Source of the DNA: Micromonospora sp. NBC_01740
GTDB taxonomy: Bacteria > Actinomycetota > Actinomycetes > Mycobacteriales > Micromonosporaceae
Direction of reading: 5' to 3'
Length of the DNA: 64,000 bases
Assembly (NCBI RefSeq): GCF_035920365.1
Contig: NZ_CP109150.1
Coordinates: forward strand, 3,472,001 to 3,536,000
The notes below the pieces were generated by a model. That model worked only from the letters and a program-made list of their open reading frames with translations, did not search any database and was not told the DNA's origin. Shown here piece after piece: positions 30,652-64,000 of this stretch. The number at the start of each line of letters is the position of its first letter. The stretch's first letter is position 1. Made by a program: the position numbers and the translations under genes.

Positions 30652-31692
30652 TTACGGACCGACCGGGAAAGCGGGAAGCGGGGCCAGGAGCGGTCGACCC
30701 AACCCGGTGAGGAGCTTCGCGAGCCGATCGGCGAAGTGCAGCCATTCGGCAGGGCGCAGCGCCTGATCGGCGTCGCACCGCGCCGTCGCGGCGTCGCTGT
30801 GGACGTCGATGAGCAGGCCGTCGGCGCCGGCGGCTGCGGCAGCCAGTGCCATGGGCTCGACGAGCCCCCGGTTACCGGTGCCGTGGCTCGGGTCGACGAG
30901 GACGGGGAGGTGACTGAGCTGCTTCACCATGGGGACCGCGCTCAGGTCCAGGGTGAAGCGGGTCGCCCCTTCGAAGGTGCGGATCCCCCGCTCACAGAGC
31001 ACGACGTTGGGATTGCCCCGAGCCAGCACGTACTCGGCCGCGTAGAGCCATTCCTTGATCGTGCACCCGAAGCCCCGCTTCAACAGCACCGGGAGGCCGG
31101 TCTCGGCGACCGCCGCCAGGAGCGAGAAGTTCTGCGCGTTGCGGGTGCCGATCTGCAGCATGTCGGCGTGTTCGGCGACCAGCCGGGCATGCCCGGGCTC
31201 CACCACCTCGGTGACCACCGGCAGCCCCACCTCGCGGCCGGCCTCCGCGAGCATCCGTACGCCCTCGATGCCCAGGCCCTGGAAGTCGTACGGGGACGTG
31301 CGCGGCTTGAAGCCGCCGCCGCGTAGCGCCCCGGCGCCGCCCCGGCGCACCAGGTCGGCGCAGTCGGACACCTGTTCGCGGCCCTCGACCGCGCAGGGCC
31401 CGGCGATCACGACGAACCCCTCACCACCGATGCCCAGTTGCGGGCCGAGGAACACGACCGAGCCGTCCGGCACGACGTCCCGGCTGGCCAGCGGTGGGTT
31501 CGCGTGCGACATGAGCACCTGCTCGACGCAGTCCAGCGCGGACAGCCGGTGGGTCAGCAGCACGTCCCCGTCGGGGAGGAACGCCACGGGCCGACCGCCG
31601 AGCACACAGGTCACGGGTGAGTGGGGGAGCGCGGCGACGGCCCGTAGGGAGGATGCGTCGGGATGCGTGCCACTTTTCATGATGACGAGCAC
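30652..31692 (-). CDS. DAHP synthase (class I beta, AroG/KdsA type)
   Basis: It condenses phosphoenolpyruvate and erythrose 4-phosphate, the entry to the shikimate pathway. GTG 31692, behind GGAGG, is preferred over the ATG at 31680. The 346-residue protein has an N-terminal extension of about 75 residues, then [73 protein letters not shown] and [15 protein letters not shown], all signatures of the class. A dedicated copy in a cluster that uses chorismate is a common way to raise precursor supply. It is the last gene of the leftward operon that runs from the P450. Confidence 0.93.
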
Positions 31693-31742
31693 TGTGCCTC
31701 CGTGCCGATGCGCTGGATGGGCGGAAGGGTGGGTGGACGGGT

Positions 31743-32792
31743 TCAGGACGCCGCTGCGGGCAGGTGCAGTGCGCCGCGGAAGAACGCCCCGATCTGTTCC
31801 TCGAGCCGGGCGAGCGCGTAGCCGCCCTCCTGGATGACCAGGAGCGGCCGACCTAGGGCGACGAGGCTCCTGCCCAGGTGCCACAGATCCTCGTCACCGA
31901 CGTCGAACGTGCCGACCGGATCGTCGGCGGCGATGTCCAGCCCGAGCGACACCACGACCGTCGCCGGATCGAACCTGAGCACCCGCTCCAGCAGCCGGTC
32001 GACGGTGGCGCGGTAGCGGAGGCCATCGGTGCCGTCGGGCAGCGGCAGGTTGAAGGTGGTGTCGCGGGCGTCGCCGACGCCCACCTCGTCGGGGAATCCG
32101 GAGAAGAACGGGAAGTGCCGGTCGGGGTGGCCGTGCACGGACCCGTAGAACACCTGGGGGTCGGCCCAGAAGACGTCCTGGGTGCCGTTGCCGTGGTGGA
32201 AGTCCAGGTCGACGACGGCAACCCGGCCCAGCTCCCGCAGGCTCGCTGCAGCGAGCGCGGTGTTGTTGAGGTAGCAGAACCCGCTGAAGTCCGCCACCGC
32301 CGCGTGATGCCCCGGCGGCCGGCAGAGCCCGTAGACCAGCCCGGTGCCGCTGCGGATCAGGTCGGCGCCGGTCAGCGCGAGGTCTGCCGCCTCCCGGGCG
32401 GCCGACCACGTCGACGCCATGATCGGTGAACAGGTGTCCCGGCAGTAGTATCCGGCCAGCACCCGGGCCGAGGCGTCCGCCCCGATCCGGGCCGGGCCTC
32501 CGCGCGGGCCGAAGCTGTCCGGTATGACCGGACCGGGCCGACCCTCTTCGCTCCAGCGGGCGTAGGCGGTGGCGAGGAAGCGCAGCATTCCCGGGTCGTG
32601 CACGGTCAGCAGGGACTCCTCGCCGTGCGCGGTCGGTGCGACGACGCGGGTGCCCACGGAACGAACGCCCCGCAGCAGCGCGTCGACCCGTTCCGGCCGG
32701 TCCAGCACGTCGACGATCTGCCCGTCGTCCACCTGGTGCGAGGGATCGTGCTTGCGGTGCTCTCGCCCCAGCACCGTCGTCATGTTCGACAC
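31743..32792 (-). CDS. HDAC-like/acetylpolyamine amidohydrolase
   Basis: The 349-residue protein belongs to the arginase/deacetylase superfamily and should hydrolyse an N-acetyl or other amide with zinc. Motifs: CRPPGHHAAVADFSGFCYLN (tandem histidines), VAVVDLDFHHGNGTQDVFWA (metal D and H), VVVSLGLDIAADDPVGTFDV (second metal D), and EGGYALARLEE (catalytic tyrosine region). GTG 32792 follows GAGGAGG by seven bases and overlaps the aminotransferase gene by 13 bp, so it is in the precursor operon. With the GNAT gene at 34841-35380 it could form a protect-then-deprotect pair acting on an amine of the product or precursor; this is inference. Confidence 0.88.
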   Translation of the reverse strand: MSNMTTVLGREHRKHDPSHQVDDGQIVDVLDRPERVDALLRGVRSVGTRVVAPTAHGEESLLTVHDPGMLRFLATAYARWSEEGRPGPVIPDSFGPRGGPARIGADASARVLAGYYCRDTCSPIMASTWSAAREAADLALTGADLIRSGTGLVYGLCRPPGHHAAVADFSGFCYLNNTALAAASLRELGRVAVVDLDFHHGNGTQDVFWADPQVFYGSVHGHPDRHFPFFSGFPDEVGVGDARDTTFNLPLPDGTDGLRYRATVDRLLERVLRFDPATVVVSLGLDIAADDPVGTFDVGDEDLWHLGRSLVALGRPLLVIQEGGYALARLEEQIGAFFRGALHLPAAAS

Positions 32793-33880
32793 GGCACCCC
32801 CTCCTCGTGTTGGTGCAGGGAAATCTCCTCGAGCACGTGCAGGAGCCGTTCCGTGTCCGGGCTGGTGGTGGCGGTGATCCGGATGCCGTGCCCGGGGTAG
32901 GCGCGTACCGCTATGCCGGCGGTGGCCAGCCGCAGCGCGACCGCGGCGGCGTGTCGCCCGAGTGCCAACCAGACGAAGTTCCCCTGGGAGGGCACGACCG
33001 GCCAGCCCGCCGTGTGGAGCCGCGCGGTCATGCTCTCCCGCTCGGAGACGATGCGGCGTACCCGGCGGGTGATCTCGGGTTCGTCGTGCAGCGCGGCCAC
33101 CGCCGCGGCCTCGGCGACCCGGCTCAGGCCGAACGGCAGCATCACGTTACGTAGCGCCGCGCTGACCACGGGGTGGGCGATGGCGTACGCCACCCGGAGC
33201 CCGGCCAGACCGTACGCCTTGGAGAAGGTGCGTAGCACGCACAGGTTGCCCCGGTCGGGCAGGGCCCGCAGCCCGTCCGCGAGGTCCGGCGCCGTACCGA
33301 ACTCGTGGTACGCCTCGTCGAGGACGACGGTGACCCGCGGGGGGACCGCGTCCAGGAACCGCTCCAACGCCTCCTGCGTGAAGGCCGTACCGGTGGGGTT
33401 GTTCGGATTGCACAGGAAGACCAGGCGGGTCCTCGGGCCGACCCGGTCGGCGATGTCGTCGAGGTCCAACCGGTGCTCGCGGAGCGGGGACCGCACGGGC
33501 ACCGCCTCGTGCAGCAGGGCGTCCACGAGATAGTCGTCGAACGAAGGCCAGGGGAGGACCACCTCGTCACCGGGGCCGGCGGTCGCGTGGACCAACCCGC
33601 GGCACAGGGCGACCAGTCCGGGACCGGCGACGACCATCTCCGCCGGCACCTCGCGACGGCTGGCCAGCAGGGCGGTCAGCTCCCCGTTGTCCATCGAGGG
33701 GTAGCGGTGGCCGTCCCGGCAACTGCGCAGTATCGCCTGCTGCACCGCCTCGGTGGGACCGTACGGGTTCTCGTTGAGGCCCATCCGGTGCGTGGGGCCG
33801 GCAAGCGCCAGGGGCGGCATCGGTTCGTCGGGCTCGGCGAAGGAACGCAGGGCGGGATGGTGGCGCGGCCGGTCCGTCAC
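32780..33880 (-). CDS. HisC-like aminotransferase
   Basis: The 366-residue PLP enzyme has the fold-type I, histidinol-phosphate aminotransferase pattern: MGLNENPYGPTEAVQQAI near the start, VFLCNPNNPTGTAF, VLDEAYHEFG, and the PLP lysine in LRTFSKAYGLAGLRVAY. It ends ATAGIAVRAYPGHGIRITA. Such enzymes often transaminate aromatic or prephenate-derived keto acids in secondary metabolism, so the likely substrate is the 2-keto acid made by the BacA-like protein just upstream; the genes overlap by ATGA. A genuine histidine-pathway role is unlikely in this setting. Confidence 0.88.
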   Translation of the reverse strand: MTDRPRHHPALRSFAEPDEPMPPLALAGPTHRMGLNENPYGPTEAVQQAILRSCRDGHRYPSMDNGELTALLASRREVPAEMVVAGPGLVALCRGLVHATAGPGDEVVLPWPSFDDYLVDALLHEAVPVRSPLREHRLDLDDIADRVGPRTRLVFLCNPNNPTGTAFTQEALERFLDAVPPRVTVVLDEAYHEFGTAPDLADGLRALPDRGNLCVLRTFSKAYGLAGLRVAYAIAHPVVSAALRNVMLPFGLSRVAEAAAVAALHDEPEITRRVRRIVSERESMTARLHTAGWPVVPSQGNFVWLALGRHAAAVALRLATAGIAVRAYPGHGIRITATTSPDTERLLHVLEEISLHQHEEGVPCRT

Positions 33881-34512
33881 CGCGGTCCCTCCGCCCGGTC
33901 CCCGGGGTCCGGGTCCGCGCCGATCACGGGCAGCGGCGGCAGCCGGTGGGCCACCCGCTGCGGGCGGCCGAAGACCAGCCAGCAGCAGACGACCGGGCCG
34001 ATCGTGGCCACCAGGTCCAACTCGTCGCGGTGCTCGTGGTAGCCCGGCATCGACACGATGGCCGCATCCGACCGCCCGGCGAGTGTGTGTCGCAGGGCGA
34101 TCGGCTTGGCCGAGACGTAGTCCACCCGCGAGAAGTCGGCGAGATCCAGGTAGCCGCGGGTGGCCGGCATGAGGGCGATGCTGGTCGGGCGGGCCACGTC
34201 GGCCCGCTTGACCAGCGCCAACGGCATCGTGGGCAGCGCGAAGAAGTCCACCATCGCGACCCTCCGCCAGTCGCGGGTCACCAGCAGGTCCACGTCCTGG
34301 TGCGCACTGTTGACCACCAGCAGCCGGAGGCCGTCGCCAGCGAGGAAGTCGCCTGCCGCCGCGAAGTCGGTGAGCAGGTGGATGGAGTGCCGGCCGTCCA
34401 GGCGGGTGCGGGCGTACTCGCGGGCGGCCCGTTCGTGGTCCGTCCCGGCGGGACCGAGCGTGCCGAGCGACCAGGTGGTGGGCAGGGTGGGCGACGCCGC
34501 CGGCGCGGTCAC
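33877..34512 (-). CDS. BacA-type prephenate decarboxylase-like protein
   Basis: GTG 34512 overlaps the mutase stop (GTGA), giving 211 residues, close to the 204 of bacilysin BacA. The start SLGTLGPAGTDHERAAREYA parallels BacA (LGPEGTSSEYAA) and prephenate dehydratases. LLVVNSAHQDVDLLVTRDWR occupies the substrate-loop position, and GPVVCCWLVFGR the place of the end segment. The Thr-Arg-Phe motif of true dehydratases is not found. In BacA-like enzymes, decarboxylation of prephenate proceeds without loss of the ring hydroxyl and leaves a non-aromatic dihydro ring. Here the natural substrate would be 4-amino-4-deoxyprephenate, supplied by the neighbouring mutase and synthase. The substrate is inferred from context. 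Confidence 0.75.
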   Translation of the reverse strand: MTAPAASPTLPTTWSLGTLGPAGTDHERAAREYARTRLDGRHSIHLLTDFAAAGDFLAGDGLRLLVVNSAHQDVDLLVTRDWRRVAMVDFFALPTMPLALVKRADVARPTSIALMPATRGYLDLADFSRVDYVSAKPIALRHTLAGRSDAAIVSMPGYHEHRDELDLVATIGPVVCCWLVFGRPQRVAHRLPPLPVIGADPDPGDRAEGPR

Positions 34513-34844
34513 TGCTGTGTTCCTGCCGGATCGTTGGCCATCAGCTCGTCCTCGAGGCGGCAGGCCGTCTCGATCAGCTCCGCCGCGATCCGATCCAGCA
34601 GGTCGTCGGGGATGCCGTGGGCGAGGCCGTAGGCGGCGTACCGGCTGCGCACGAACGAGACGCGGTCGCTCTGCATCATCGGTACGCCGCTGGCCTGCTT
34701 GTGCCGCGCGATCCTGCGGATCACGTCGAACCGGCTCTTGATGGCCTCGAGAATGCGGAGGTCGACCACGTCCAGCTCGTGACGCAGCCGGTCCAACTCG
34801 TCCAATGGGGATCCTTCTCTCGAGTAGCGATCCTCGTGCCTCAT
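34509..34844 (-). CDS. papB: Chorismate mutase, probably 4-amino-4-deoxychorismate mutase (PapB-like)
   Basis: The 111-residue AroQ-fold protein has LDELDRLRHELDVVDLRILE (first helix, with the arginine), AIKSRFDVIRRIARHKQASG (helix with the R and K ligands) and VPMMQSDRVSFVRSRYAAYG (third catalytic region). The MMQSDRV segment recalls PapB/CmlD-type mutases, which turn 4-amino-4-deoxychorismate into 4-amino-4-deoxyprephenate. The presence of a PabAB synthase in the same operon supports that over plain chorismate mutase. It overlaps both neighbours: ATGA with the GNAT gene upstream, GTGA with the BacA-like gene downstream. Confidence 0.85.
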   Translation of the reverse strand: MRHEDRYSREGSPLDELDRLRHELDVVDLRILEAIKSRFDVIRRIARHKQASGVPMMQSDRVSFVRSRYAAYGLAHGIPDDLLDRIAAELIETACRLEDELMANDPAGTQQ

Positions 34845-35380
34845 GCCGTGTCACCGCTCTGTAGACGCATTCGCAGGCCGATCGAGCGGAAGCCCTGCCG
34901 GGAGTAGAAGGAGCGGGTTCGCGGCTCCTGCGCGAACCGGTGCGAGGGAAGACCCACCTCGACCGTCCGGATGCCCGCGGTGGCGAGTTCCCCGAGGAGA
35001 CCGGAGACCAGCGCCGCGCCCACGCCGGCACCGCGGGCCTGCGGGCTCACGAACAACTCCTCGATGAGCGCGTAGCGGCCCGCCGTCCGCACCGCGAACG
35101 GGAAGCTCGCCGTGAGGATGCCCACCGGCACGGCGGCACGGGACGCCCGCGCCGGGGCGTGGTCCAGGTCGGCGAGGAGTACGAGTCCGCGGGACGGGTC
35201 GCCGAGCAGTTCTTCGGCGGCGCTCCGGCTCGCTTCGGCGAGCGTACGGTCGGGGACGCCCGAGAGCTCCCGGAGCAACCGGGTGACCACCTCCATCACC
35301 AGGTCGACGTCCGAGGGGGCCGCCCGTCGTACGACCGTCTCCTGCCGGCGCGGCTCGCCGGGCCGGTCGGTGCCGGTCAC
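34841..35380 (-). CDS. GNAT-family N-acetyltransferase
   Basis: GTG 35380 overlaps the synthase stop (GTGA), giving 179 residues. The central GNAT motifs are VGILTASFPFAVRTAGRYAL, EELFVSPQARGAGVGAALVS (acetyl-CoA pyrophosphate loop RGAGVG) and FYSRQGFRSIGLRMRL. It should transfer an acetyl group from acetyl-CoA to an amine. Inside this operon the candidates are the 4-amino group of the precursor or an amine of the finished compound, as self-protection or a pathway protecting group. The HDAC-like hydrolase downstream would reverse it. Other acyl donors cannot be excluded. Confidence 0.85.
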   Translation of the reverse strand: MTGTDRPGEPRRQETVVRRAAPSDVDLVMEVVTRLLRELSGVPDRTLAEASRSAAEELLGDPSRGLVLLADLDHAPARASRAAVPVGILTASFPFAVRTAGRYALIEELFVSPQARGAGVGAALVSGLLGELATAGIRTVEVGLPSHRFAQEPRTRSFYSRQGFRSIGLRMRLQSGDTA

Positions 35381-37518
35381 GGGTGCGGCCTCTCGTCCAT
35401 GGCCGTGGCGTTGACCGCGTTGAGCACCGACTGCGCCTTGAGCGTGACCTCCGCCCATTCCCGTTCCGGGTCGGAGAGGATGGTGAGGGCGCCGCCGGCC
35501 CCGACCGTGGTCGTTCCGTCGTGGTGTACCAGGGTGCGGATCACGATGTTGAAGTCGGCCGAGCCGTCGAGGCCGAAGTACCCGATCGTCCCGGAGTAGA
35601 TCCCCCGCGCCTGTCCTTCGAGTTCGTCGATGATCTGCATGGTGCGCACCTTCGGCGCGCCGGTCATGGATCCGCCGGGGAAGGACGCCCTCATGCAGTC
35701 CACGGCGGTCCGGCCCGGTGCCAGTCTTCCTTCGATCTTCGACACCATCTGGTGCACCGTCTCGAACGACTCGATCAACATCAGGGCGGGCACCCGGATC
35801 GAACCCGGCTGGCAGACCCGCCCGAGGTCGTTGCGGATCAGGTCCACGATCATGAGGTTCTCGGCGCGTTCCTTGGGGTCGGCGGCGAGCGCCCCGGCCA
35901 GCCGCCGGTCCTCGGCAGGCTCCGGGCTGCGGGGGCAGGTGCCCTTGATGGGCTTCGCGGTGACCGTGCCGTCCGCGCAGACCTTCAGGAAGCGTTCAGG
36001 GGACGACGACGAGACCTTCGTGTCGCCGAAGTCGAGGTAGGAGGCGTACGGTGCCGGATTGATCCGCCGTAGTCGCCGGTACGCCGTGAACGGTTCGAGG
36101 GCGAGTTCGACCTGGAACTGGGTGGTCAGGCAGACCTCGTAGGTCTCGCCCTCGCGCAGCAGTTCCCGGGACGTGTGGATGTCCTTCAGGTACTGGGCGC
36201 GCCCGCGCAGCGGATACGCGGGCGTCGCCGCCGGCGTGGCAAGGTCCGTCAGCTCCGGCGGCCGCACGCCCCGCAGCGGCTCCAGCAGCGCGGTGGTGCG
36301 GTCCAGCCAGTCGGCGGCATCCTCCTCCTGCCCGGCGATGGCCAACGCCAGCAGGTGGACCTCGTCGCGTTCGTGGTCCAGGACGACCAGTCGGTCGGCC
36401 ATGATCAGGGCGGCATCGTCCGTGGCCGTGCTGTGCAGGCAGCCCGTCGCCTCGTCGGTGGTGCACTCGTAGCCCAGCCAGCCGACGTAGCCGCCGACGA
36501 AGTCGAACGGAAGGCCGGCGGTGTCCTCGGCGTCGAGCTGAAGTTCGGCGAGGCGCCCGGCAAGGTAGTCGAGCACGTGGGTGTCGGGCAGCACGCGGTG
36601 CCGGCCGCCGGCCTCCACCCGGGTCGTCCGCGTCGTCGTCCTGTAGCGCACGACCTCGCTCAGCGGCCCACCCGGGGAGCAGACCAGGTAGGAGAAGCGT
36701 CCGGTGTCGTGACCGGTGCGGGCGCTGTCCAGCCACGCCGCCGCCGAGCCGACGTGCAGCCGCAGGAAGGCCAGCTCGGCGTCGATCGGTCCGCTGAGCG
36801 TCCGGCGGGCGACCCGTAACCGCTTCGCCCCGCCCGCCGTGGGCCGGGCGTCGGCGCGGACGCGTTCCGGCAGCGCCCAGGGCCGTCTCGTCCGGAGCCC
36901 CGCCCGGTGCTGTCGCCGTGCCCAGGACCGGGTCAGGTCGTGGAAGTTGCGGATGATCCGGTCGCCGTGCTCGGTCAGGATCGACTCCGGATGGAACTGC
37001 ACGCCGTACCGGGGACGGTCGGTCGCGGCGAGCCCCATCAGCGTTCCGTCGTCCGCCCAGGCGGTGGCGCGCAGCCCCGGTGGCAGCGGCTCCCCGATGG
37101 ACAGGGAGTGGTAGCGGACCACCGCGAAGTCCTGCGGTATGCCCGCGAAGAGCTCACCCTCGTGGCGGACGGTGCTCAGCCGGCCGTGCATGACCTCGCC
37201 CGCCGGCGCGGTGCGGGCGCCGTAGCTGACGGCGATGCCCTGGTGCCCCAGGCAGATCCCGAGCACGGGCACCGTCGCCTCGGCGATGGCCTCGTGACAC
37301 ACGCCGAAGTCGCCGGCGTTCTCCGGGCGGCCCGGACCGGGGGAGATCACGATGTTGTCCGGGTCGAGCGCGACCAGTTCCGCCCAGGTGAACTCGTCGT
37401 TGCGCACCACGATCGGGTCGCGGCCGTTCACCGAGGCGAGCTGGTGGAAGAGGTTGTACGTGTACGAGTCGTAGTTGTCGATCAGGAGGGTCCGGATCGG
37501 CTCGTCTGTCACGGTCAT
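35377..37518 (-). CDS. pabAB: Fused aminodeoxychorismate synthase (PabA-PabB)
   Basis: The 713-residue protein makes 4-amino-4-deoxychorismate from chorismate and glutamine. Residues 1-200 are the glutaminase half: LLIDNYDSYTYNLFHQLASV, GICLGHQGIAVSYGARTA (catalytic Cys near 90) and YGVQFHPESIL (His/Glu). From about 250 follows the PabB half, with YEVCLTTQFQVELALEPFTA and KPIKGTCPRS near 521. The lysine of PIKGT is the ADC-synthase signature, whereas anthranilate synthases have PIAGT. FPGGSMTGAPKVRTMQIIDE and YSGTIGYFGLDGSADFNIVI complete the active site. An in-frame TTA (Leu) codon lies at 36819-36817. The start is ATG 37518 or, with a better spacer after AGAGG, GTG 37512. Confidence 0.95.
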   Translation of the reverse strand: MTVTDEPIRTLLIDNYDSYTYNLFHQLASVNGRDPIVVRNDEFTWAELVALDPDNIVISPGPGRPENAGDFGVCHEAIAEATVPVLGICLGHQGIAVSYGARTAPAGEVMHGRLSTVRHEGELFAGIPQDFAVVRYHSLSIGEPLPPGLRATAWADDGTLMGLAATDRPRYGVQFHPESILTEHGDRIIRNFHDLTRSWARRQHRAGLRTRRPWALPERVRADARPTAGGAKRLRVARRTLSGPIDAELAFLRLHVGSAAAWLDSARTGHDTGRFSYLVCSPGGPLSEVVRYRTTTRTTRVEAGGRHRVLPDTHVLDYLAGRLAELQLDAEDTAGLPFDFVGGYVGWLGYECTTDEATGCLHSTATDDAALIMADRLVVLDHERDEVHLLALAIAGQEEDAADWLDRTTALLEPLRGVRPPELTDLATPAATPAYPLRGRAQYLKDIHTSRELLREGETYEVCLTTQFQVELALEPFTAYRRLRRINPAPYASYLDFGDTKVSSSSPERFLKVCADGTVTAKPIKGTCPRSPEPAEDRRLAGALAADPKERAENLMIVDLIRNDLGRVCQPGSIRVPALMLIESFETVHQMVSKIEGRLAPGRTAVDCMRASFPGGSMTGAPKVRTMQIIDELEGQARGIYSGTIGYFGLDGSADFNIVIRTLVHHDGTTTVGAGGALTILSDPEREWAEVTLKAQSVLNAVNATAMDERPHP

Positions 37519-37521
37519 CCT

Positions 37522-38664
37522 CTAACCACCGCTCACCTTGAGCTCCGGGGCAGCCTCGGTCAGGAACTGATCGAGGCGCTCCAGCGCCTCCGGCATGTTG
37601 CTGCGGCCGTAACCGATCCGGACGTACCCGTCCGGTTCGTCGAACACGTCACCCGGCAGCAGCAGCACGCCGGCCCGGCGTCGCACGAGGTCCACGAACT
37701 CGCGACTCGACATGCTGATCCTGAAACGGGGGAACGCCACCGTGCCCGCGCCCGGTCGGTTCCAGCTCACCAGGTCCCGGTGGCGGGCGAAGAACTCGTC
37801 CAGCAGCGGCAGGTTCGCGCGGACGATGCCCCGCGGACGGGCCAGCACCTGTTCGGCGTTGCGCAACGCCATCAGGGCCAGCAACTCGCTCGGCGCGGCG
37901 GCGCAGATCGTGGTGTAGTGCTTCATTCCCGCGGCCCGCCGCAGCAGGTCCGAGTTCTTGCTGGCCAGCCAGCCGATCCTGGCCCCCGGCAGCCCGTAGA
38001 CCTTGGAGACCACACCGATCGAGACGCCGGTGTCGGACACCTCGACCGCGGCCGGGAGCCGGTCGGCCACGTCGTGTTCGAGCAGCCGGTAGATCTCGTC
38101 GCTCACGAGCGTCGCACCGATGTCGTCGGCGAGCTGCCTCAGCCTGGTGAACTCGGCCTGGGTGGGCAGTGCCCCGGTCGGGTTGTTCGGGGCGTTCACC
38201 ACGATCATGCGGGTGTCCTCCCGCACGGCGTCGACGATCCGGGAGACGTCGAAGCCGAAGCCGTCGCCGACGTCCATCCGTACCCGGGTGACGTCGGCGC
38301 CGGCCGCCTCCGCCACCTCGTACAGGGGCTGCCAGCACGGCGTCGCGACCACCACGTGGTCCCCGGGGCTCAGCTCGGCGTTCATCATGCAGAAGATCGC
38401 GTCCTGGGCGCCGGAGAAGACCAGGACGTTCTCTGCCGTCACCCCGTCGTACTGGGCGGCGATGGCCTCGCGCAGCAGCGGGTGGCCCCACGTCTCGGTG
38501 TAGCCGAGGACGAGGTTGTCCCAGAGCTTCCGGCTCTCCGGGTCGGCCATCTCGACCAGGTCCCGCATCGGCAGTGCCTCCGCGTCGGAACCGCACATCA
38601 CGTACCTGGTCACGAATTCGTACTCGGCGAAGAAGGTCTCGATTTTCAACTCGGCGATGCGCAC
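37522..38664 (-). CDS. Class I/II PLP-dependent aminotransferase
   Basis: The 380-residue PLP enzyme from GTG 38664 (AGGAG six bases before) has EYEFVTRYVMCGSDAEALPM, LGYTETWGHPLLREAIAAQY, VVNAPNNPTGALP and the PLP lysine in VVSKVYGLPGARIGWLAS, with the terminal arginine in YVRIGYGRSNMP. It belongs to the COG0436 aspartate-aminotransferase-like group. It is the second aminotransferase of the operon; one may form the alpha-amino group and the other may act elsewhere in the pathway, or both may be redundant. It lies three bases from the start of the ADC synthase gene and is surely co-transcribed with it. Confidence 0.87.
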   Translation of the reverse strand: MRIAELKIETFFAEYEFVTRYVMCGSDAEALPMRDLVEMADPESRKLWDNLVLGYTETWGHPLLREAIAAQYDGVTAENVLVFSGAQDAIFCMMNAELSPGDHVVVATPCWQPLYEVAEAAGADVTRVRMDVGDGFGFDVSRIVDAVREDTRMIVVNAPNNPTGALPTQAEFTRLRQLADDIGATLVSDEIYRLLEHDVADRLPAAVEVSDTGVSIGVVSKVYGLPGARIGWLASKNSDLLRRAAGMKHYTTICAAAPSELLALMALRNAEQVLARPRGIVRANLPLLDEFFARHRDLVSWNRPGAGTVAFPRFRISMSSREFVDLVRRRAGVLLLPGDVFDEPDGYVRIGYGRSNMPEALERLDQFLTEAAPELKVSGG

Positions 38665-38779
38665 GAGGGTCTCCTGTTGCGAGAGGTTTCACGGACGTGG
38701 AGGGGCGCGGGACGCGTCACAGGTGGGGTGGCCGACGGGCCACCTCGCAGCTCGCGTCCGCCGACGGGGATACGGGGGA

Positions 38780-45197: not shown

Positions 45198-45209
45198 GGA
45201 GGCCCTCTC

Positions 45210-46520: not shown

Positions 46521-46606
46521 CCGCCCGCGGCTGCCAGCCCGATGACCCCGCGCCGGGTGTGCCCCGAGAAATCCCAGGCCACCATGACCGACAGGGAGCT
46601 CGTCAC

Positions 46607-50833: not shown

Positions 50834-50928
50834 GCCTCGGCCCCTGCCGCCAGCGCGTCGCGCCCCCGCCGGTCCGCCAGTCCGCCCCGCGTCGATCGCG
50901 GTCCGATCCGTAGAAGGAGTGCCAGTCA

Positions 50929-55212
<4,284 letters not shown>

Positions 55213-55278
55213 CCGTCGGCCAGCCCAACCAGAAAGTAGCCCTGTGGCGCCGGGTACGGCGTGGAAGGACGGGATCAG

Positions 55279-58200: not shown

Positions 58201-58332
58201 GTCGCTGTCCTACAGGCACTGGTCGAGGTCGCCGGGGCGGAGCTGGTCCACCACGACAAGGCGGACGCCGGCACGGCGACCGGGCGCCGGCGACCCATCG
58301 AGAGCGGAGGACGAGATGACCCGAACGCGTGA
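55279..58332 (+). CDS. NRPS 4: C-A(inactive)-PCP
   Basis: From ATG 55279 (AAGGA nine bases upstream; GTG 55261 is the alternative) the protein has 1017 residues. The condensation domain has HHMSWDF near 136, phenylalanine replacing the last glycine, and the usual NFVNPLVLRSDV. The adenylation domain keeps the N-terminal part (ALHCAGRVLSYGELHRSVER) and C-terminal part (GRASRRVRVGGYRVDLDEVE). It has lost motif A3 (no SGSTGxPKG), recognisable A4-A5, and the A10 lysine (RHGRIDL), so it cannot adenylate. The carrier (SGGHSLLATRV near 938) is intact and must be loaded by another A domain or the adjacent AMP-ligase. Confidence 0.9.
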   Translation: MGSAVREYPASYAQRGMWHAFELAPESSVYHVTVRADVSGHLDMAALRAAAGRLAQRHDVLRTTFRSTGDELSARVHDDLPVPVTEVHVADRDPDGFEDRVRHEARIPFRLTEEGPLRIVLLDGAPDRQVLLFVFHHMSWDFESIVLALRELGELYQDGLTRAGRDPGGTHREGAAGYAAFAEWEHTWVAGPEGEESQAYWAQQWADLPEALDLPSRRPRQAARSYTGAMHWTELEPTHVTGLDQLARDAGVTRYAVLLTAFTVLLSRFADQHEVTVGLAGSQRTLPEHRWTLGNFVNPLVLRSDVRPERTFRDLVTAGSRTVFAALRHRIVPFPLLVQRQRPDYDTSRAPVFDVLFAYDKPHNRDQDLLARFVAGRGETRWGDLLLRSRPLDCAETFYDLTTYVFDSSSAVAVRWEYNTDVLTDEAVAGLGRHFGALLSALLAAPDTPVGELVVDEPAESVATQETGISTASLVAAHAAAAPDRPALHCAGRVLSYGELHRSVERLADQLRAVGAGPGTEVAIRLPRSVGLVVALLAVDRVGGSCRLVDPHLDPPPGSVHLVVTEAGITRNSGAADAGPPATTDGDGGHLELLLARYPLDGRDRVLQHEPVTSRTPLAEFRWPLAAGAQLVLAPPDADGEPAGLAALLARERPTVVQLRTETLPAAVIEPLPPLPGLRRALCRGDVPSLAQVRQLRRWTGVEPDHLYLVDGTPVGALSEVDTADGFPLLDRLPPGVRPQLLDADGHPVPPHAVGVLTLSAPAPAGSPAQTSGPGILTCTGRLARREADGRIRLHGRASRRVRVGGYRVDLDEVERLLEAQPAVREAVVVTSEDQGRARMAAFLVPHRADGSGLRELREALSRQRARYLVPAEFHRIAQVPRDRHGRIDLAALTAPAADPDSEYTPPATPLERELALMWGDLLGVEKIGRHDDFFHSGGHSLLATRVSAEVKDRFGVALPVRTIFVSSTLERYAVAVLQALVEVAGAELVHHDKADAGTATGRRRPIESGGRDDPNA

Positions 58333-59707
58333 CTGGTGGGGTTCCGCCCTGCTCCAGCGCGGCGGCGACGACGAGGTGTGGGCGTGGGGCAGCCACGCGG
58401 TGACGCACGCCGGACTTCGGGAGGCCGTGGCGCGCCTGGCCGCCCGGTTCGAGGCGGCGGGCGTCGGGCCGGGAGCCAGTGTCGTGCTGCGGCTGCCGCC
58501 GTCCCTGACCCTGATCCAGTCGATGCTCGCCCTCTGGTCGCTCGGCAGCCAGGTCATCCTGGCGGACGTCCGGCTGAAGCCCTCGGAGGTGGCCCGCACC
58601 CTGGATCTGCTCCGCCCGACCCACCAGGTCCACTCCACCGACGCCCACCAGCCGTTCACTCCGTTCCGCGACCGGTGCGAGGTCCTCGTCGAGAGGCTGC
58701 CGGAGGGTTCCGCGGCCGTCGCGGACGTGGTGCTGGTGCAGCTCAGCTCGGGGTCGACCGGGCTGCCGAAGGTGATCGGCCGCAGCGCCGAATCGCTCCT
58801 GTCGGAGCTGCGCCGGCACGCCGACATCGCGGGCATGCCCGGACCGGGGGAGCGGGTGCTGGTGCTCAGCTCGATCATCCACGCGTTCGGACTGATGGCC
58901 GGTGTGCTCCACGCGCTGCGCGTCGGCGCCCAGGTGGTGTTCGCCGACCGTCTCCAGCCGGACGACCTGCTGCACCGGGCCCGTACCGCCGAGGTGGCGG
59001 TGATCCTCGGGGTGCCGGCCCACTTCGACCTCCTCGCCCGCGCCTCCGGCGAGGAGCGGATGCCGCGACTGCGGGTGGCCGCGTCGGCGGGGGAGGCCCT
59101 CACCGCCGCGGTCCGGCAGCGCTTCCTCGACCGGTACGGGGTCCGGCTCGGCCAGGAGTACGGCATGACCGAGGTCGGCGTCATCGCCGCCGACCTTCGC
59201 GGGGAGCATCCCACGCCCTCGGTCGGCACGTTGGCGCCCGGGATCGAGGCCCACAGCGTCGGCGGTGAACTGCGGGTCCGGCTGGAGCGCTCGCCCTACC
59301 TGTACGCCGAAGGCAGCGACCGCCACGCGGACGGCTGGTTGCGTACCTGCGACCGGGGTGAGCTGGACCCGGTCACCGGAGCCCTGCGGCTCGCCGGACG
59401 GACGGACAGCCTCGTCGCGGTCGGCGGTCTCAAGGTCGATCTCGGCGAGGTGGAGGCGGCGCTGCGGGAGCACGCCGGGGTTCGTGACCTGGTGGTGGTC
59501 TTCGGCGATGGCATCGAGGCCCACGTCGAGGCGGAGCCCAGCGTGGACGCGACGGCACTGATGGCGTGGTGCCGGGAGCGGCTCAGCGACTACAAGCTTC
59601 CCCGCCGGATCTACCTCGTGCCGGCCATCCCGCGCAACGCGACCGGCAAGTTGCTCCGCAATCGGGACCTGCTGCACGCCGCGTACGACGGGTCGGGGCC
59701 GGCGTGA
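58316..59707 (+). CDS. ANL-family AMP-ligase (acyl/aryl-activating)
   Basis: The 463-residue stand-alone enzyme starts at ATG 58316, after GGAGG, overlapping NRPS 4 by 17 bp. It has the phosphate loop LSSGSTGLPKVI, YGMTEVG (A5), WLRTCDRGELD (A7), GRTDSLVAVGGLKVDLGEVE (A8) and the catalytic lysine in RNATGKLLR. It should adenylate a carboxylic acid and pass it to a carrier protein, most likely the ACP encoded next. It recalls the activating enzymes of aryl-polyene and fatty-acid-like pathways rather than amino-acid A domains, but an aryl or cyclohexenyl acid substrate is only inferred. Confidence 0.9.
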   Translation: MTRTRDWWGSALLQRGGDDEVWAWGSHAVTHAGLREAVARLAARFEAAGVGPGASVVLRLPPSLTLIQSMLALWSLGSQVILADVRLKPSEVARTLDLLRPTHQVHSTDAHQPFTPFRDRCEVLVERLPEGSAAVADVVLVQLSSGSTGLPKVIGRSAESLLSELRRHADIAGMPGPGERVLVLSSIIHAFGLMAGVLHALRVGAQVVFADRLQPDDLLHRARTAEVAVILGVPAHFDLLARASGEERMPRLRVAASAGEALTAAVRQRFLDRYGVRLGQEYGMTEVGVIAADLRGEHPTPSVGTLAPGIEAHSVGGELRVRLERSPYLYAEGSDRHADGWLRTCDRGELDPVTGALRLAGRTDSLVAVGGLKVDLGEVEAALREHAGVRDLVVVFGDGIEAHVEAEPSVDATALMAWCRERLSDYKLPRRIYLVPAIPRNATGKLLRNRDLLHAAYDGSGPA

Positions 59708-59772
59708 CGGAGCCCGTTCCCACCAGCCAACGTCCCCGGTGGCGGGACGCCACCGTCCGAAATGGAGTAATG

Positions 59773-60048
59773 ATGCAGGCAGCGGTCCGGTCGTACGTCA
59801 GGGAGTCGATCGAGAAGATGACGGGGAACCGGGTTCCGGAGGAGTGCGACGACGACACACCGCTCGGCTACGGCGGCCTGGAGCTCGAATCGCTGTACCT
59901 GATGGAACTCACGGTCCAGGTGGAACGGGAGTACGGCGTGAACCTCGGCCTGGACCTCGCCGAGCTGCCCGGTTACACGATCGGTGACCTCGTCCGCCGG
60001 GTGTCCGGCGTGGCCGAGGGGCGGCCCGGATCGGAGAGCCGGCCGTGA
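59773..60048 (+). CDS. Acyl carrier protein 1
   Basis: The 91-residue protein has the phosphopantetheine site in GLELESLYLMELTVQVE, with serine in the LES-L context. ATG 59773, five bases from GGAG, is chosen over the ATG at 59770. It follows the AMP-ligase by 65 bp. The pattern DDDTPLGYGGLELESL differs from the PCPs of the NRPSs and matches dissociated type II carriers, so it is the likely acceptor of the AMP-ligase product. Confidence 0.88.
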   Translation: MQAAVRSYVRESIEKMTGNRVPEECDDDTPLGYGGLELESLYLMELTVQVEREYGVNLGLDLAELPGYTIGDLVRRVSGVAEGRPGSESRP

Positions 60049-60308
60049 CGGACCTCGACGAACTCCGTACCCTGCTCGCCGAACAGCCGACGATCTTCGG
60101 CGGCGCCGACCTGGACGTCGACACGGAACTGGCGTTGGACTCGCTGGCGACGGTCTGGCTGGTGCACCTCCTCAGCCGGCGCTACGGCATCGACGAGCGG
60201 GCGCTGGAGCCGCTGACGGCGGAGTTCACCTCGATCCGGCGCATCCACGCCCACGTCAGCAGGCTGGCCGGGCCGGCCCCGGACCCCCTGCCCGGCAGCC
60301 GGTCATGA
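60045..60308 (+). CDS. Acyl carrier protein 2
   Basis: The 87-residue protein has TELALDSLATVWLVHLLSRR with the DSL phosphopantetheine serine. GTG 60045 overlaps ACP 1 (GTGA), and its own stop overlaps the ketosynthase ATG. Two different adjacent carriers suggest separate roles for starter and extender, as in aryl polyene systems. Confidence 0.87.
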   Translation: MTDLDELRTLLAEQPTIFGGADLDVDTELALDSLATVWLVHLLSRRYGIDERALEPLTAEFTSIRRIHAHVSRLAGPAPDPLPGSRS

Positions 60309-61480
60309 CCAGGAACGTGGTGATCACCGGGTTCGGCATCTTCACCGCCTTCGGATTCGGCGCCGAGCCGCTGCGTACGGGGGTCTTCGGCGGTAACCCG
60401 GCCTTCGCGCCCGTCACCCGGTTCGACACCGCGTGCTTCCGGGCGCGGCACGCCGCCACCCACCGGTGGGCGTCGGGCGATCCGGACGCGACCCCGAGGC
60501 AGATCTCGGTCTTCCTGGAGTGCGCGCGGGCGGCGCTGGCGATGGCCGGTCCGCCCGACCCGGCCGCGATTCCGGTTCTGATCGGCACCCAGGGCGACTA
60601 CACCGCCGTCACCGACTTCTGGTCGACGCCGGAGGCCGCGCGGGGGACCGACCCGGACGCCGGGGCCGCCGGGCTGGCCGCCTGGCTACCGCGGCGGCTG
60701 GGTACGGAACTCGGGCTGGGGGAGCCCCGCACGGCCTTCATCAACGCCTGCGTCGCGTCCACCAACGCGATCATCCACGGCGCCCGGCTCGTCGCCGCGG
60801 GGCGGGCCGACGCCGTGCTCTGCGGCGGCGCCTACCTGGTGGAGCGGGAACTGTTCGCCAAGTTCGACTCGGGGGCGGCGTTCGCGGTGGACGGACGGAT
60901 CCGCCCGTTCAGCCGGGACCGGTCCGGGCTCCTGCTCGGCGACGGGGTGGCGGCTCTGGTGATCGAGTCGGAGCAGAGCGCGGTGGCCCGGGGCGCCGAG
61001 CCATTGGTCCGGCTGGCGGGTTGGGGCATGGCGGCGGACGCCTACCACGTCGTGCGCCCCGATCCGGCCGGGTCGGGGATGGCCCTCGCCATGAACCGGG
61101 CCCTGCGCCGGGCCGGCGTCCGGCCGGAACGGATCGGCTACGTCAACGCCCACGGCACCGGTACCGCGGCCAACGACAGCGCCGAGGCCACCGCGCTGTC
61201 CCGGGTCTTCGGGCCGGGCGCCGGCGGCGTCCCGGTCAGCTCGACGAAGAGCACGACCGGGCACCTGCTCGAGGCGGCGGGAGCGGTGGAGGCCGTCATC
61301 ACCATGGTGGCGCTGCGGACCGGCCTGGTGCCGCCCACCGCCGGCTTCACCGAACCCGACCCGAACTGCGAACTCGACCCGGTGGCCAACCAGGCACGGC
61401 ACACCTCGCCACGCCTGGCGGTGAGCCTCAACGCCTCGTTCGGAGGAGTGAACGCGGCCCTCGTGATGGAGCGACTGTGA
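60305..61480 (+). CDS. Beta-ketoacyl-ACP synthase (KS)
   Basis: The 391-residue condensing enzyme has a complete triad. The nucleophile is in FINACVASTNAII (C149), the first histidine in YVNAHGTGTAANDSAEAT (H283), and the second in SSTKSTTGHLLEAAGAVE (H320, with its lysine). It ends AVSLNASFGGVNAALVM. It is of the FabF/type II PKS class. ATG 60305 overlaps the ACP stop. It should extend an acyl-ACP, probably with malonyl units, in concert with the short ketosynthase-like partner downstream. No malonyltransferase is encoded in the window, so the host enzyme would be used. Confidence 0.93.
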   Translation: MTRNVVITGFGIFTAFGFGAEPLRTGVFGGNPAFAPVTRFDTACFRARHAATHRWASGDPDATPRQISVFLECARAALAMAGPPDPAAIPVLIGTQGDYTAVTDFWSTPEAARGTDPDAGAAGLAAWLPRRLGTELGLGEPRTAFINACVASTNAIIHGARLVAAGRADAVLCGGAYLVERELFAKFDSGAAFAVDGRIRPFSRDRSGLLLGDGVAALVIESEQSAVARGAEPLVRLAGWGMAADAYHVVRPDPAGSGMALAMNRALRRAGVRPERIGYVNAHGTGTAANDSAEATALSRVFGPGAGGVPVSSTKSTTGHLLEAAGAVEAVITMVALRTGLVPPTAGFTEPDPNCELDPVANQARHTSPRLAVSLNASFGGVNAALVMERL

Positions 61481-62253
61481 CGAAGGTCTTCGACGACGCG
61501 ACCCGTGCAGGCTGTGCCGCCGAGCAGGTCGGGCCGGGGCCCGGCACCGAGATCGTGGCCACCGCCGCGGTCACGCGGGGACCGGCCGACGACCCCCGCG
61601 GGCCGGTCCGCTCCCGGGACTACGACCTGCCCGGTTTCGTGGAGTCCCGGTTCAGTCCGCTCGTGCACGAGGCGGCGCAGCTGTGCCTCGGAAAGCCCGG
61701 GGCCAGCCACGCCGACGACTGGCGGGAGAGCACGGCGATGCTCCTGGTCGGCACGTTCGGGGACGCCGTCACCGCCGACACGGCGAGCACCCGCCTGCTG
61801 GCCGGACTGGTGCACAACCCGCTGCTCTTCTACCAGTCGGTGCCCACCTCCGTGCTGGGCCATCTCGCCCGCGAGTACGGCATCACCGGCGAGATCTCCT
61901 GCCTCTCGGTGGACCGCGACGTCTGCGCGCCGGCACTGGCCGCGGCGGAACTGATCCTCCACGACGGCGACATGCGCCAGGTCCTGGTCATCGGCGTCGA
62001 ACTGGCGGCGACGCCCCGTACCGCGCCGGCCTACCGCAGCGCACAGTTGCCCTACCTGACGGCACCCCGCCACGACGTGGCCGCGGCTGTCCTGCTGCGG
62101 AGCACCGACCCGACCGTCCCGACCGTCGACCGGACGCCGGCGGGCCTGCCGGCTCCGGTGGAGTTCGGCAGCCTCAACGAACTCGTACGGCTCTGTACCG
62201 GCGCCAGCCGGCGGGTACCGGCCGCGACGCCACCAGCAACGAAGGAGAACTGA
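61477..62253 (+). CDS. Short ketosynthase-like protein, possible chain-length-factor partner
   Basis: GTG 61477 overlaps the KS stop, giving 258 residues. The region NPLLFYQSVPTSVLGHLARE, then YGITGEISCLSVDRDVCAPA and GDMRQVLVIGVELAATP, parallels the N-terminal half of ketosynthases. No active-site cysteine in the usual context and no C-terminal histidines are present. The size resembles the short beta-ketoacyl synthase chain-length-factor family (Ketoacyl-synt_2) of aryl polyene clusters. It would form a heterodimer with the complete KS, setting chain length. The N-terminal 60 residues are not recognisable. Confidence 0.7.
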   Translation: MTKVFDDATRAGCAAEQVGPGPGTEIVATAAVTRGPADDPRGPVRSRDYDLPGFVESRFSPLVHEAAQLCLGKPGASHADDWRESTAMLLVGTFGDAVTADTASTRLLAGLVHNPLLFYQSVPTSVLGHLAREYGITGEISCLSVDRDVCAPALAAAELILHDGDMRQVLVIGVELAATPRTAPAYRSAQLPYLTAPRHDVAAAVLLRSTDPTVPTVDRTPAGLPAPVEFGSLNELVRLCTGASRRVPAATPPATKEN

Positions 62254-62256
62254 GAC

Positions 62257-62982
62257 ATGACCGGCATCCCCCTGCTCTGCCTGCCGTTCGCCGGAGCGGG
62301 TGCGAGCTACTACTCGCCATGGCGCGACCGCGACGAGCGGGTCCAGGTGCGTCCGTTGCAGCTCCCAGGCCGGGAGAACCGGCTCGAGGAGGAGCCGTGC
62401 ACCGAGGTGCGGGCCGCGGTCGACGACCTGGTGCGCAACCTCCCGCCAGCGGTGACCGGTGGAACGGCGGTGGCGGTGTTCGGGCACAGCCTGGGCGCGG
62501 TACTCGCCTTCGAACTGGTCCGCCGCCTGGAGACGGCCACCGGTGTCGTGGTCCGGCACCTGTTCGTCTCCGGTTCCCCCGGGCCGTGGTCGGTGCGGGA
62601 GAACGGGGCCAGCGGCCTCACCGACGAGGCGTTCCTGCGCCGGGTCCGGGAGTTCGCCGGGTACGAGCACCCGGCGCTGGCCGACGAGGAACTGCGCGAC
62701 CTGATCCTGCCCGCGATGCGTGCCGACGTGCAGATGCACGAGAGCTATCGGGCGGCGCCCGACGCGCGGGTGGCGGCGCCGGTGACGGTGCTGCGGGGTG
62801 CCGAGGACGCGCTCGTCGCCGAGGACGAGGCCGCGCAGTGGCGGGCGGCCACCCTCGGCGACTTCCGGCTGATGAACCTCCCCGGTGGGCACATGTACCT
62901 GACCGACCAGGTCGACGCGATCCTGGGCCTGGCGGGGGAGACGCTGGCCGAGGCGGCCCCGGTATCCGGCGGAGCGCGATGA
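62257..62982 (+). CDS. Type II thioesterase
   Basis: The 241-residue alpha/beta hydrolase has PLLCLPFAGAGASYYSPWRD at the start, the nucleophile in VFGHSLGAVLAFEL, an aspartate near PVTVLRGAEDALV, and the catalytic histidine in NLPGGHMYLTD, all typical of GrsT/RifR-type enzymes. These remove stalled or wrong acyl groups from carriers. It is coupled to the downstream SDR by an ATGA overlap. ATG 62257 follows GGAG by nine bases. Confidence 0.93.
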   Translation: MTGIPLLCLPFAGAGASYYSPWRDRDERVQVRPLQLPGRENRLEEEPCTEVRAAVDDLVRNLPPAVTGGTAVAVFGHSLGAVLAFELVRRLETATGVVVRHLFVSGSPGPWSVRENGASGLTDEAFLRRVREFAGYEHPALADEELRDLILPAMRADVQMHESYRAAPDARVAAPVTVLRGAEDALVAEDEAAQWRAATLGDFRLMNLPGGHMYLTDQVDAILGLAGETLAEAAPVSGGAR

Positions 62983-63803
62983 GGCTCGACGGGAAGGTCG
63001 CCGTCGTCACCGGCGCCGCCCGGGGTCTCGGCCGGGCCTGCGCCGTCGCGTACGCCGACGAGGGAGCCGCCCTGGTCCTGACCGACGTCGCAGCGGACAT
63101 CGACGGCGTGCCGTACCCGCTGGGCTCACTGAGCCAGCTGGAACACACCGCGGAACTCTGCCGGGACCGAGGTGCCCCGGTGCTGGTACGCACGGCGGAC
63201 CTGCGGTCCACGGCGCAGGTGCAGCAGGTGGTAAGCGACACAATGGACCGGTTCGGTCGGGCCGACGTGCTGGTCAACTGCGCGGGTATCGCCGCACCGT
63301 CGGGGCAGTCGACCCAGGAGATCACCGAGGCCCAGTGGCTGCTCATGATCGATGTCGACCTCAACGGCGCGTGGCGCATGATCAGGGCGACGGCCCCGGG
63401 GATGCTCGCGCAACGCGCGGGCAGCATCATCAACGTCTCCTCCACCGCCGGACTGGTCGGCTACCGCAACTTCGCGGCCTACGTCGCGGCCAAGCACGGC
63501 CTGATCGGCCTGACGCGGGCGGCCGCCCTGGACTTCGCGCCGCTGAAGGTACGCGTCAACGCGTTGTGCCCGGGTTCGGTGCGGGACAGCGAGCCCTTCG
63601 AGGGGCGGATGCTCTCGGAGATCGCCCGATCCCTGGACGTCGCGGTGGCCGACCACGAAGAGACCTTCCTGCAGGGGCAGCCGATGAACTCGCTGGTCGA
63701 ACCGGAGGACGTCGCCTCCGCGGCGCTCTGGTTGGCGTCCGACGAGTCCCAGCGGGTCACCGGGAGCGTCGTCACGGTGGACGGTGGGTTCACCAGCCGA
63801 TGA
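62979..63803 (+). CDS. Short-chain dehydrogenase/reductase
   Basis: The 274-residue SDR has TGAARGLGRACAVAYADEG (TGxxxGxG), CAGIAAP (NxAG), INVSSTAGLVGY (catalytic Ser) and YVAAKHGLIG (YxxxK), ending VTGSVVTVDGGF. Compared with FabG it has an insertion DVAADIDGVPYPLGSLSQLE after the second strand, which recalls mycofactocin-coupled SDRs that hold a non-exchangeable nicotinamide. It could reduce the beta-keto group made by the KS, or oxidise an alcohol if mycofactocin-type. The gene overlaps the TE stop by ATGA. Confidence 0.88.
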   Translation: MRLDGKVAVVTGAARGLGRACAVAYADEGAALVLTDVAADIDGVPYPLGSLSQLEHTAELCRDRGAPVLVRTADLRSTAQVQQVVSDTMDRFGRADVLVNCAGIAAPSGQSTQEITEAQWLLMIDVDLNGAWRMIRATAPGMLAQRAGSIINVSSTAGLVGYRNFAAYVAAKHGLIGLTRAAALDFAPLKVRVNALCPGSVRDSEPFEGRMLSEIARSLDVAVADHEETFLQGQPMNSLVEPEDVASAALWLASDESQRVTGSVVTVDGGFTSR

Positions 63804-63857
63804 CCGCGCCGCCACGTCGCTTGTCGCGGGGCCGGAGCGGTGGAGTTGGAGGTACGG

Positions 63858-64000
63858 ATGAGCAACGAACTGCCGACCCGGCCGGTCGACCCGGCCGTGG
63901 ACCCGACGCCGACGCGCCGCACCGGCGCTGACCTGCCGGCGCGTGGCTGGTCGCCGACGGACACGCACGCTGTTGCGGTGCCCCTGCCGGCCGAGGTGAC
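63858..64000 (+). CDS. Next gene of the operon (truncated by window edge)
   Basis: ATG 63858 follows GGAGG by five bases, 54 bp after the SDR stop. Forty-seven codons are visible (MSNELPTRPVDPAVDPTPTR, then GADLPARGWSPTDTHAVAV). The proline-rich N-terminus and the same orientation suggest another cluster gene; its function cannot be read. Confidence 0.5.
   Translation, partial: MSNELPTRPVDPAVDPTPTRRTGADLPARGWSPTDTHAVAVPLPAEV

Follow-up and report, generated by a model that had tools for sequence, protein, structure and literature searches.

We analysed a 64,000-nt stretch of the single-contig, 7.32-Mb genome of Micromonospora sp. NBC_01740 (NZ_CP109150.1, positions 3472001–3536000; hereafter the window, from whose first letter coordinates are counted). 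We propose that it carries a nonribosomal peptide synthetase (NRPS)/highly reducing type II polyketide synthase (PKS) hybrid cluster of roughly 37 kb, in which 4-amino-4-deoxychorismate (ADC) feeds two branches, one leading to a non-aromatic ring amino acid and the other to a p-aminobenzoate (PABA) starter. We give this reading a probability of about one half. The product is probably an unusual non-aromatic ring amino acid joined to a short peptide with an aromatic acid cap. Genes were called and annotated by open reading frame (ORF), Pfam and NCBIfam analysis, the main ORFs of 30.6–74 kb being scanned against Pfam; the genes, domains, gene overlaps, shared contigs and motifs given below are direct observations. 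All genes that an earlier reading of this DNA (the original prediction) had listed on the two arms were recovered. Four had been missed and are added here: an HDAC-superfamily deacetylase, a GNAT acetyltransferase, a fifth NRPS (N5) and a class IV pyridoxal phosphate (PLP) gene, of which the last two carry the cluster across the right edge of the window to ∼67.66 kb.

The ring amino acid branch is read from a minus-strand operon. Its pabAB gene (35377–37518, −) encodes a fused aminodeoxychorismate synthase (PF00425 and PF00117; pabB TIGR00553 358.4 bits, cutoff 328.4) with the diagnostic motif PIKGT. There follow genes for a GNAT N-acetyltransferase (34841–35380, −; PF13508/PF00583; GTG start at 35380), an AroQ chorismate-mutase-family protein (CM_2; 34509–34844, −; PF01817, 51.9 bits), a BacA-like protein (33877–34512, −) and a HisC-like aminotransferase that is a candidate 2-oxo acid transaminase (32780–33880, −; PF00155; PRK03321 370.6 bits, cutoff 374). 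Successive genes in this series overlap by 4 bp, beginning with the pabAB stop and the GNAT start, and the aminotransferase and deacetylase genes (the latter at 31743–32792, −; PF00850, 218.4 bits) overlap by 13 bp as called. Given these overlaps, we assign the GNAT and deacetylase genes to one operon with those that act on chorismate. By family membership, both an ADC synthase and a chorismate mutase are present, and the PDB matches of AroQ are intracellular chorismate mutases (E 3e-7 to 4e-6). The arm ends with a gene for a DAHP synthase (3-deoxy-7-phosphoheptulonate synthase; 30652–31680, −; ATG at 31680; PRK08673 394.7 bits, cutoff 335; TIGR01361 345.1 bits, cutoff 267.75), assigned to precursor supply.

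The BacA-like ORF is a real gene, since it has homologues of ∼50–60% identity elsewhere and overlaps both neighbours by 4 bp. Its predicted product resembles the prephenate dehydratase (PDT) fold but has no ACT domain and lacks the diagnostic motif TRF, which is present in the genome's own PDT; we propose it as a non-aromatising decarboxylase of 4-amino-4-deoxyprephenate. Searched alone, the protein gave no Pfam or NCBIfam match (no PF00800 up to E 1) and no match in a PDB sequence search. In hhalign its profile matched a bridging family at 98.8%, which itself matches PDT weakly. A search of the profile against the PDB returned one phage neck protein (E 0.004), which was taken as chance. The clade is marked by an invariant NxAHxxVDLxxTxxW stretch plus a KP pair. 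The genome holds one prephenate dehydrogenase (PF02153) match, at 455950–456345, and since this sole match lies ∼3 Mb away, no PapC is assigned to the cluster; the PapC-like gene just beyond the right edge that the original prediction had raised as a point against itself is not there.

A substrate derived from ADC is suggested by the company that the BacA-like gene keeps in other genomes. A database search returned 10 proteins: its own, seven at 54–61% identity and two at 30–32%. Co-occurrence was read from matches on contigs of identical exact base count, rather than from the neighbourhoods directly, using the best 120 matches each of the deacetylase and of PabAB. Five of the seven close foreign homologues have PabAB and/or the deacetylase on the same contig, and the remaining two contigs, with 1232 and 1960 bases, leave too little room to reveal one; where testable, the BacA-like gene is accompanied by PabAB or the deacetylase. 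All three occur on contigs of 10547576 bases (Amycolatopsis sp. NBC_00345) and 2805027 bases, the BacA-like gene with PabAB on one of 5475 bases and with the deacetylase on two of 5983 and 6717 bases. The genes on these 5–7 kb contigs must be near neighbours. The deacetylase and PabAB also share a contig of 57237 bases. Viewed from the partners, five of nine foreign deacetylases of at least 55% identity have one of the other genes alongside, as do four PabAB proteins among the best 120 matches. A close match was found in the source genome alone among 354 genomes of its family, 397 of its order and 394 of its class (overlapping sets), sets of 4 genomes from one genus and 3 from one family added none, which is an uninformative negative, a search of 390 genomes of a family taken for Pseudonocardiaceae gave one distant match and no close one, and two scans of genome contigs with the BacA-like gene gave no relative. 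Contig sharing is the best evidence that the decarboxylase substrate is ADC-derived and bears an amine, and it also sets the limit of that argument.

Two further groups of proteins were noticed in these searches. Several PabAB proteins from Kineosporia are 57–59% identical to the one described here, with no BacA-like match on contigs of the same lengths, and perhaps belong to yet another pathway that uses ADC. A PDT-like family separate from the first (∼175–190 aa, no TRF, no ACT) is found in eight stretches, seven from the same family as the window and one from the family taken for Pseudonocardiaceae; an NRPS-like adenylation domain lies ∼5 kb away in 4 of the 8. These proteins probably belong to other non-aromatic chorismate pathways.

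In the proposed pathway, the DAHP synthase would supply the chorismate pathway, PabAB would make ADC, AroQ would convert this to 4-amino-4-deoxyprephenate, and the BacA-like enzyme would decarboxylate it without aromatising the ring. The aminotransferase would then yield 4-amino-dihydrophenylalanine (4-aminocyclohexadienyl-alanine). Such a decarboxylated, non-aromatic amino acid is the best reading of this branch, and we rate it somewhat above an even chance. Since the operon contains both a GNAT protein and a deacetylase, we infer an acetyl cycle: the former would acetylate the allylic ring amine, which is fragile, while the molecule is being assembled, and the latter, being of the acetylpolyamine-amidohydrolase type, would free it at the end. 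The closest PDB relatives of the deacetylase are acetylpolyamine amidohydrolases (3q9b, E 7e-75; 9gkz; 6phr), and it retains the metal-site motifs GHH, DLDFHHG and GLD, with the Zn ligands and tandem His present if the residue roles are as we assume. Aminocyclohexadienes are chemically unstable. An acetyl cycle would fit both this lability and the N-acetyl-amiclenomycin residue that stravidin 8 is reported to contain (PMC13336041).

The second branch would begin at the plus-strand genes for acyl chain assembly. An aryl-acid AMP ligase (58316–59707, +), in the position of AvaA1/CmaA1 and the proposed aminobenzoate loader, is followed by two acyl carrier proteins (ACPs), a ketosynthase (KS) and a chain-length factor (CLF)-like protein. 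ACP1 (59770–60048, +; PF00550; 44% identical to the first ACP of NBC_01343) is in the position of AvaA2/CmaA2, the extender carrier. ACP2 (60045–60308, +), the presumptive starter carrier, has Trp and His three residues apart; its PF00550 score of 14.8 bits is below the cutoff. The KS (60305–61480, +; PF00109/PF02801; 52% to the NBC_01343 KS) has the motifs NACVAS, HGTGT and TKSTTGH, and the short CLF-like partner (61477–62253, +), with no Pfam or NCBIfam match of its own, is 52% identical over 165 aa to the CLF of NBC_01343. A type II thioesterase (62257–62982, +; PF00975, 133.3 bits) and a short-chain dehydrogenase/reductase (SDR) related to mycofactocin-coupled SDR subfamily 1 (62979–63803, +; TIGR03971 281.1 bits, cutoff 300), a candidate ketoreductase, complete the set. 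As described in PMC10777205, the ava and cma clusters have A1–A5 in the order ligase–ACP–ACP–KS–CLF, and Trp38/His41 of CmaA3 are tied to the starter-carrier ACP. The gene order here and the Trp/His pair of ACP2 match both features. The generic 'extended acyl unit' of the original prediction is accordingly replaced by an ava/cma-type, aminobenzoate-primed chain as the preferred reading.

PABA is probably the starter, as the genes for 3-amino-4-hydroxybenzoate (3,4-AHBA) synthesis (ADHS and DHQS II) gave no tblastn match at 1e-4 in the window plus 20 kb of right flank, PabAB and an ADC-lyase-like class IV gene (66916–67413 and 67425–67661, in two frames beyond the right edge, after N5) are present, and relatives of the ligase lie near aminobenzoate genes. 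In a plasmid collection 2196 records matched the ligase; among the 30 listed, five were at least 40% identical (40–49%), and aminobenzoate genes adjoin the ligase in all five. ADHS and DHQS II lie beside it in NBC_01343, NBC_00503, NBC_01022 and NBC_00464, the last two sharing identical neighbour proteins and hence not being independent, and pabB and a class IV gene in NBC_00335, whose class IV protein is 40% and 48% identical to the two frames here. ACPs, KS and CLF accompany the ligase in two of the five plasmids (NBC_01343 and NBC_00335). A CLF-like search gave matches in 126 of 354 genomes including the source, mostly at 35–47%; in each of the top three beyond the source, ligase, KS, CLF, ADHS and DHQS II lie within ∼11 kb of the ligase. 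All eight ligase relatives of at least 40% identity whose surroundings were read are thus near genes for making aminobenzoates. The NBC_00335 plasmid also holds a diiron oxygenase and an aminoacyl-tRNA-ligase-like protein, and looks like a PABA-primed aryl cluster. Plasmid regions of Pantoea, Aliiroseovarius and Variovorax were set aside for their unrelated context. In the proposed second branch, ADC would go to PABA, which the ligase would load onto ACP2; elongation by KS–CLF with one or two malonyl units, and reduction by the SDR, would then give an aminocinnamoyl-like acyl group.

The two branches would meet on the NRPS. N1 (40995–45197, +) is a terminal module with condensation (C), adenylation (A), thiolation (T) and thioesterase (TE) domains, an A code of DAESTGGISK and the C motif HHMVSDG. 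N2 (46607–50833, +; ATG start) reads C–T–C–TauD with no A domain, the TauD part (PDB 1y0z) being a 2-oxoglutarate-dependent hydroxylase domain. N3 (50929–55212, +) has a degenerate or partial C domain with no HHxxxD motif, an A domain (DLTSLGHVGK), an N-methyltransferase and a T domain. N4 (55261–58332, +) is C–A–T, with a degenerate A domain (partial Pfam AMP-binding match; A3 core motif missing in the alignment), and N5 (63858–66830, +, past the window edge) is A–T (DFWSVGMVHK), preceded by a C-like N-terminal part that has no Pfam match and reads HRSLLDG. The codes are presumed to be Lys/Arg-like for N1 (with Glu at position 239, as in codes of that kind), Asp-like for N3 and Thr-like for N5. 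HHxxxDG is the motif of C domains, and the HH pair is intact in N1, in the first C of N2 (HHLLADG) and in N4 (HHMSWDF); the other C of N2, which reads HHIVFDR and is fused to TauD, is a possible interface domain. Three working C domains would give four joined units, and since the T domains of N2 and N4 have no working A domain of their own, loading in trans is expected. The acyl group, Thr, an N-methyl (probably β-hydroxy) Asp and the basic ring amino acid would be joined and released by the TE of N1, giving a predicted product (aminocinnamoyl-like)-Thr-(N-Me-OH-Asp)-(aminocyclohexadienyl-Ala). Here the module order is a guess, and substrates, acetyl cycle and product are likewise predictions. 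The N-methyl/hydroxy-Asp-like residue of the original prediction agrees with the Asp-like code of the methyltransferase-bearing module and with the TauD domain. An MFS exporter (45210–46520, +; PF07690/PF05977) lies between N1 and N2; the PF05977 (MFS_3) group presumably holds siderophore exporters, and exporter and Asp hydroxylase together might hint at metal binding.

Several observations weigh against the proposal of ADC feeding both branches. The fit of the BacA-like protein to the PDT fold is loose (TM 0.46–0.47, rmsd 5–7), and the protein by itself matches no Pfam, NCBIfam or PDB sequence family. Contig sharing was assessed for the BacA-like protein, PabAB and the deacetylase, and the 10.5-Mb and 2.8-Mb contigs show presence, not adjacency. 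Four of the nine deacetylases are without a partner (contigs of 944, 1322, 3065 and 6057 bases). The closest PabAB, from Micromonospora sp. DT233 (63%, contig of 849776 bases), has neither a BacA-like nor a deacetylase partner, as is true of most other top matches, and PabAB of this type evidently also works without a BacA-like gene. The original prediction of a non-aromatic aminocyclohexadienyl unit holds for the most part, with the support of the missing PapC, the fold, the motif loss and the shared contigs, although the nearest PabAB has no such partner. On the acyl side, PABA formation would call for the class IV gene, which lies in two frames, whether through a sequencing error or through true decay. 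No KS/CLF was seen in the stretches read from the NBC_00503, NBC_01022 and NBC_00464 plasmids, and in NBC_01340 a KS and CLF (55% and 43%) occur with neither a close ligase nor ADHS/DHQS II. Finally, the A codes, which are tentative, depend on an alignment to GrsA reference letters.

The most serious alternative is that PabAB serves only the PABA starter, whilst AroQ and the BacA-like protein use ordinary chorismate and prephenate, giving a 4-hydroxy, bacilysin/salinosporamide-like dihydrotyrosine or cyclohexenyl-alanine. Action on plain prephenate is left open by this second possible job of PabAB. It would agree with NBC_00335, where pabB and a class IV gene lie beside the same kind of ligase, KS and CLF, in a stretch that lacks BacA-like and HDAC matches, with the lack of a BacA-like match on the contigs of the closest PabAB relatives, such as that of DT233, and with the known prephenate decarboxylases, which act on prephenate (Mahlstedt 2010, cited in PMC10157211). 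The position of pabAB speaks against it, since the gene overlaps the BacA operon and sits 20 kb from the ligase; three other contigs, one of 5.5 kb, carry PabAB together with BacA-like relatives, the GNAT protein and acetyl-amine hydrolase point to an amine, and the N1 code looks basic. We consider this alternative unlikely.

Aromatisation after all, with the BacA-like product oxidised by the P450 or the SDR to p-aminophenylalanine as in the chloramphenicol, streptogramin or dnacin pathways, is less probable still. Actinomycetes usually convert 4-amino-4-deoxyprephenate to p-aminophenylalanine, and the minus arm does hold a P450 and the plus arm an SDR. However, no PapC-type dehydrogenase is near the cluster and the genome has the one prephenate dehydrogenase match, the SDR sits in the acyl arm, and on the way to an aromatic product a separate decarboxylase that lacks a dehydrogenase domain would be superfluous. 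For the acyl branch, the ligase could load another acid, either 2-oxoglutarate, on the model of cispentacin and coronafacic acid, or else the non-aromatic ring acid. The split class IV gene would suit this, as would the full-length match of the KS to AmcF of cispentacin (219.6 bits). The AmcF equivalog cutoff is 325, however, a control KS from an AHBA cluster scores 222.7, the CLF gave no match to AmcG, and the cispentacin reading of the KS was dropped; with the kinship and neighbours of the ligase indicating aminobenzoates, a different starter is highly doubtful. An ADC-fed pathway to both the ring amino acid and PABA is preferred.

One of the 'two aminotransferases' of the original prediction, the HisC-like one, stands; the other (37522–38664, −) belongs to a PLP group of transaminases and cyclodehydratases, scoring best but below cutoff with GntC (277.6, cutoff 415), PRK07324 (261.7, cutoff 476) and VioD (224.5, cutoff 390.9), with PDB matches 3op7 and 8fft, and from these scores it need not be a transaminase. 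A cytochrome P450 gene (38780–39973, −; PF00067) is its neighbour. VioC and VioD act on arginine by hydroxylation and then PLP-driven cyclisation. By analogy, the P450 and the VioD/GntC-like enzyme could hydroxylate Cβ of 4-aminocyclohexadienyl-alanine, lose water and close the ring amine onto Cβ, giving an azabicyclo[2.2.2]octane-type (isoquinuclidine) amino acid. We regard this as a long shot; if true, it would be a chorismate-derived counterpart of capreomycidine, arising from a decarboxylase-plus-deacetylase module, and the acetyl group would set the timing of attack by the amine. On its left side the cluster is immediately flanked by a gene (29388–30623, −) whose product joins a MerR-type regulator and a methyltransferase domain.

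To our knowledge, few natural products keep a chorismate-derived amine on a non-aromatic ring, and it is unusual for an ava-type acyl module, here probably primed with PABA, to supply an NRPS. The recurrent PabAB/BacA-like/deacetylase set offers a genomic handle for finding more such pathways in actinobacteria, and the BacA-like proteins form a new clade near the prephenate decarboxylases, possibly with a different substrate. The acetyl cycle suggests how cells could keep an easily aromatised amine intact. Amiclenomycins, which do keep such an amine, block biotin synthesis (PMC9113118).

A literature search, mostly without subscription papers, found no publication on a cluster of such make-up, so comparison was made with its parts, for stravidin and ava/cma by descriptions rather than sequences. 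The ring branch resembles stravidin/amiclenomycin (staA–staN, Streptomyces avidinii) in its chorismate-derived non-aromatic 4-aminocyclohexadienyl amino acid, of which an N-acetylated form is known (PMC13336041). Stravidin is of the homologation type, whereas a multi-module NRPS and a type II PKS are found here; the Pfam scan of the main ORFs at 30.6–74 kb shows no homologation (branched-chain-type) enzyme, as the original prediction had said, the genome elsewhere being left out. The genome gave no Avidin match, but neither did control genomes. BacA, SalX and AerD are similar by description in being short and PDT-like, with no ACT and no TRF; the protein described here differs in its own clade with the invariant stretch and KP pair, and in its contig link to PabAB and the deacetylase. 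VioD (capreomycidine) and GntC (guanitoxin) are the PLP cyclases with which the 37522–38664 protein scores best, although below the model cutoffs and with a P450 as neighbour, where a VioD-type enzyme presumably has an arginine hydroxylase. The acyl branch shares the gene order and the starter-ACP Trp/His pair of ava/cma (PMC10777205), linked through the Streptomyces plasmid relatives, but has no 3,4-AHBA genes, and its acyl chain would be passed to an NRPS. Among the scanned ORFs, which were not searched for them by name, neither diazotase nor nitrosuccinate genes were noticed. The NBC_00335 plasmid cluster resembles this arm in having pabB and a class IV gene beside ligase/ACP/ACP/KS/CLF (33–47% identity), whilst differing in its diiron oxygenase and further KS and in the absence of a BacA-like or HDAC match from the stretch.

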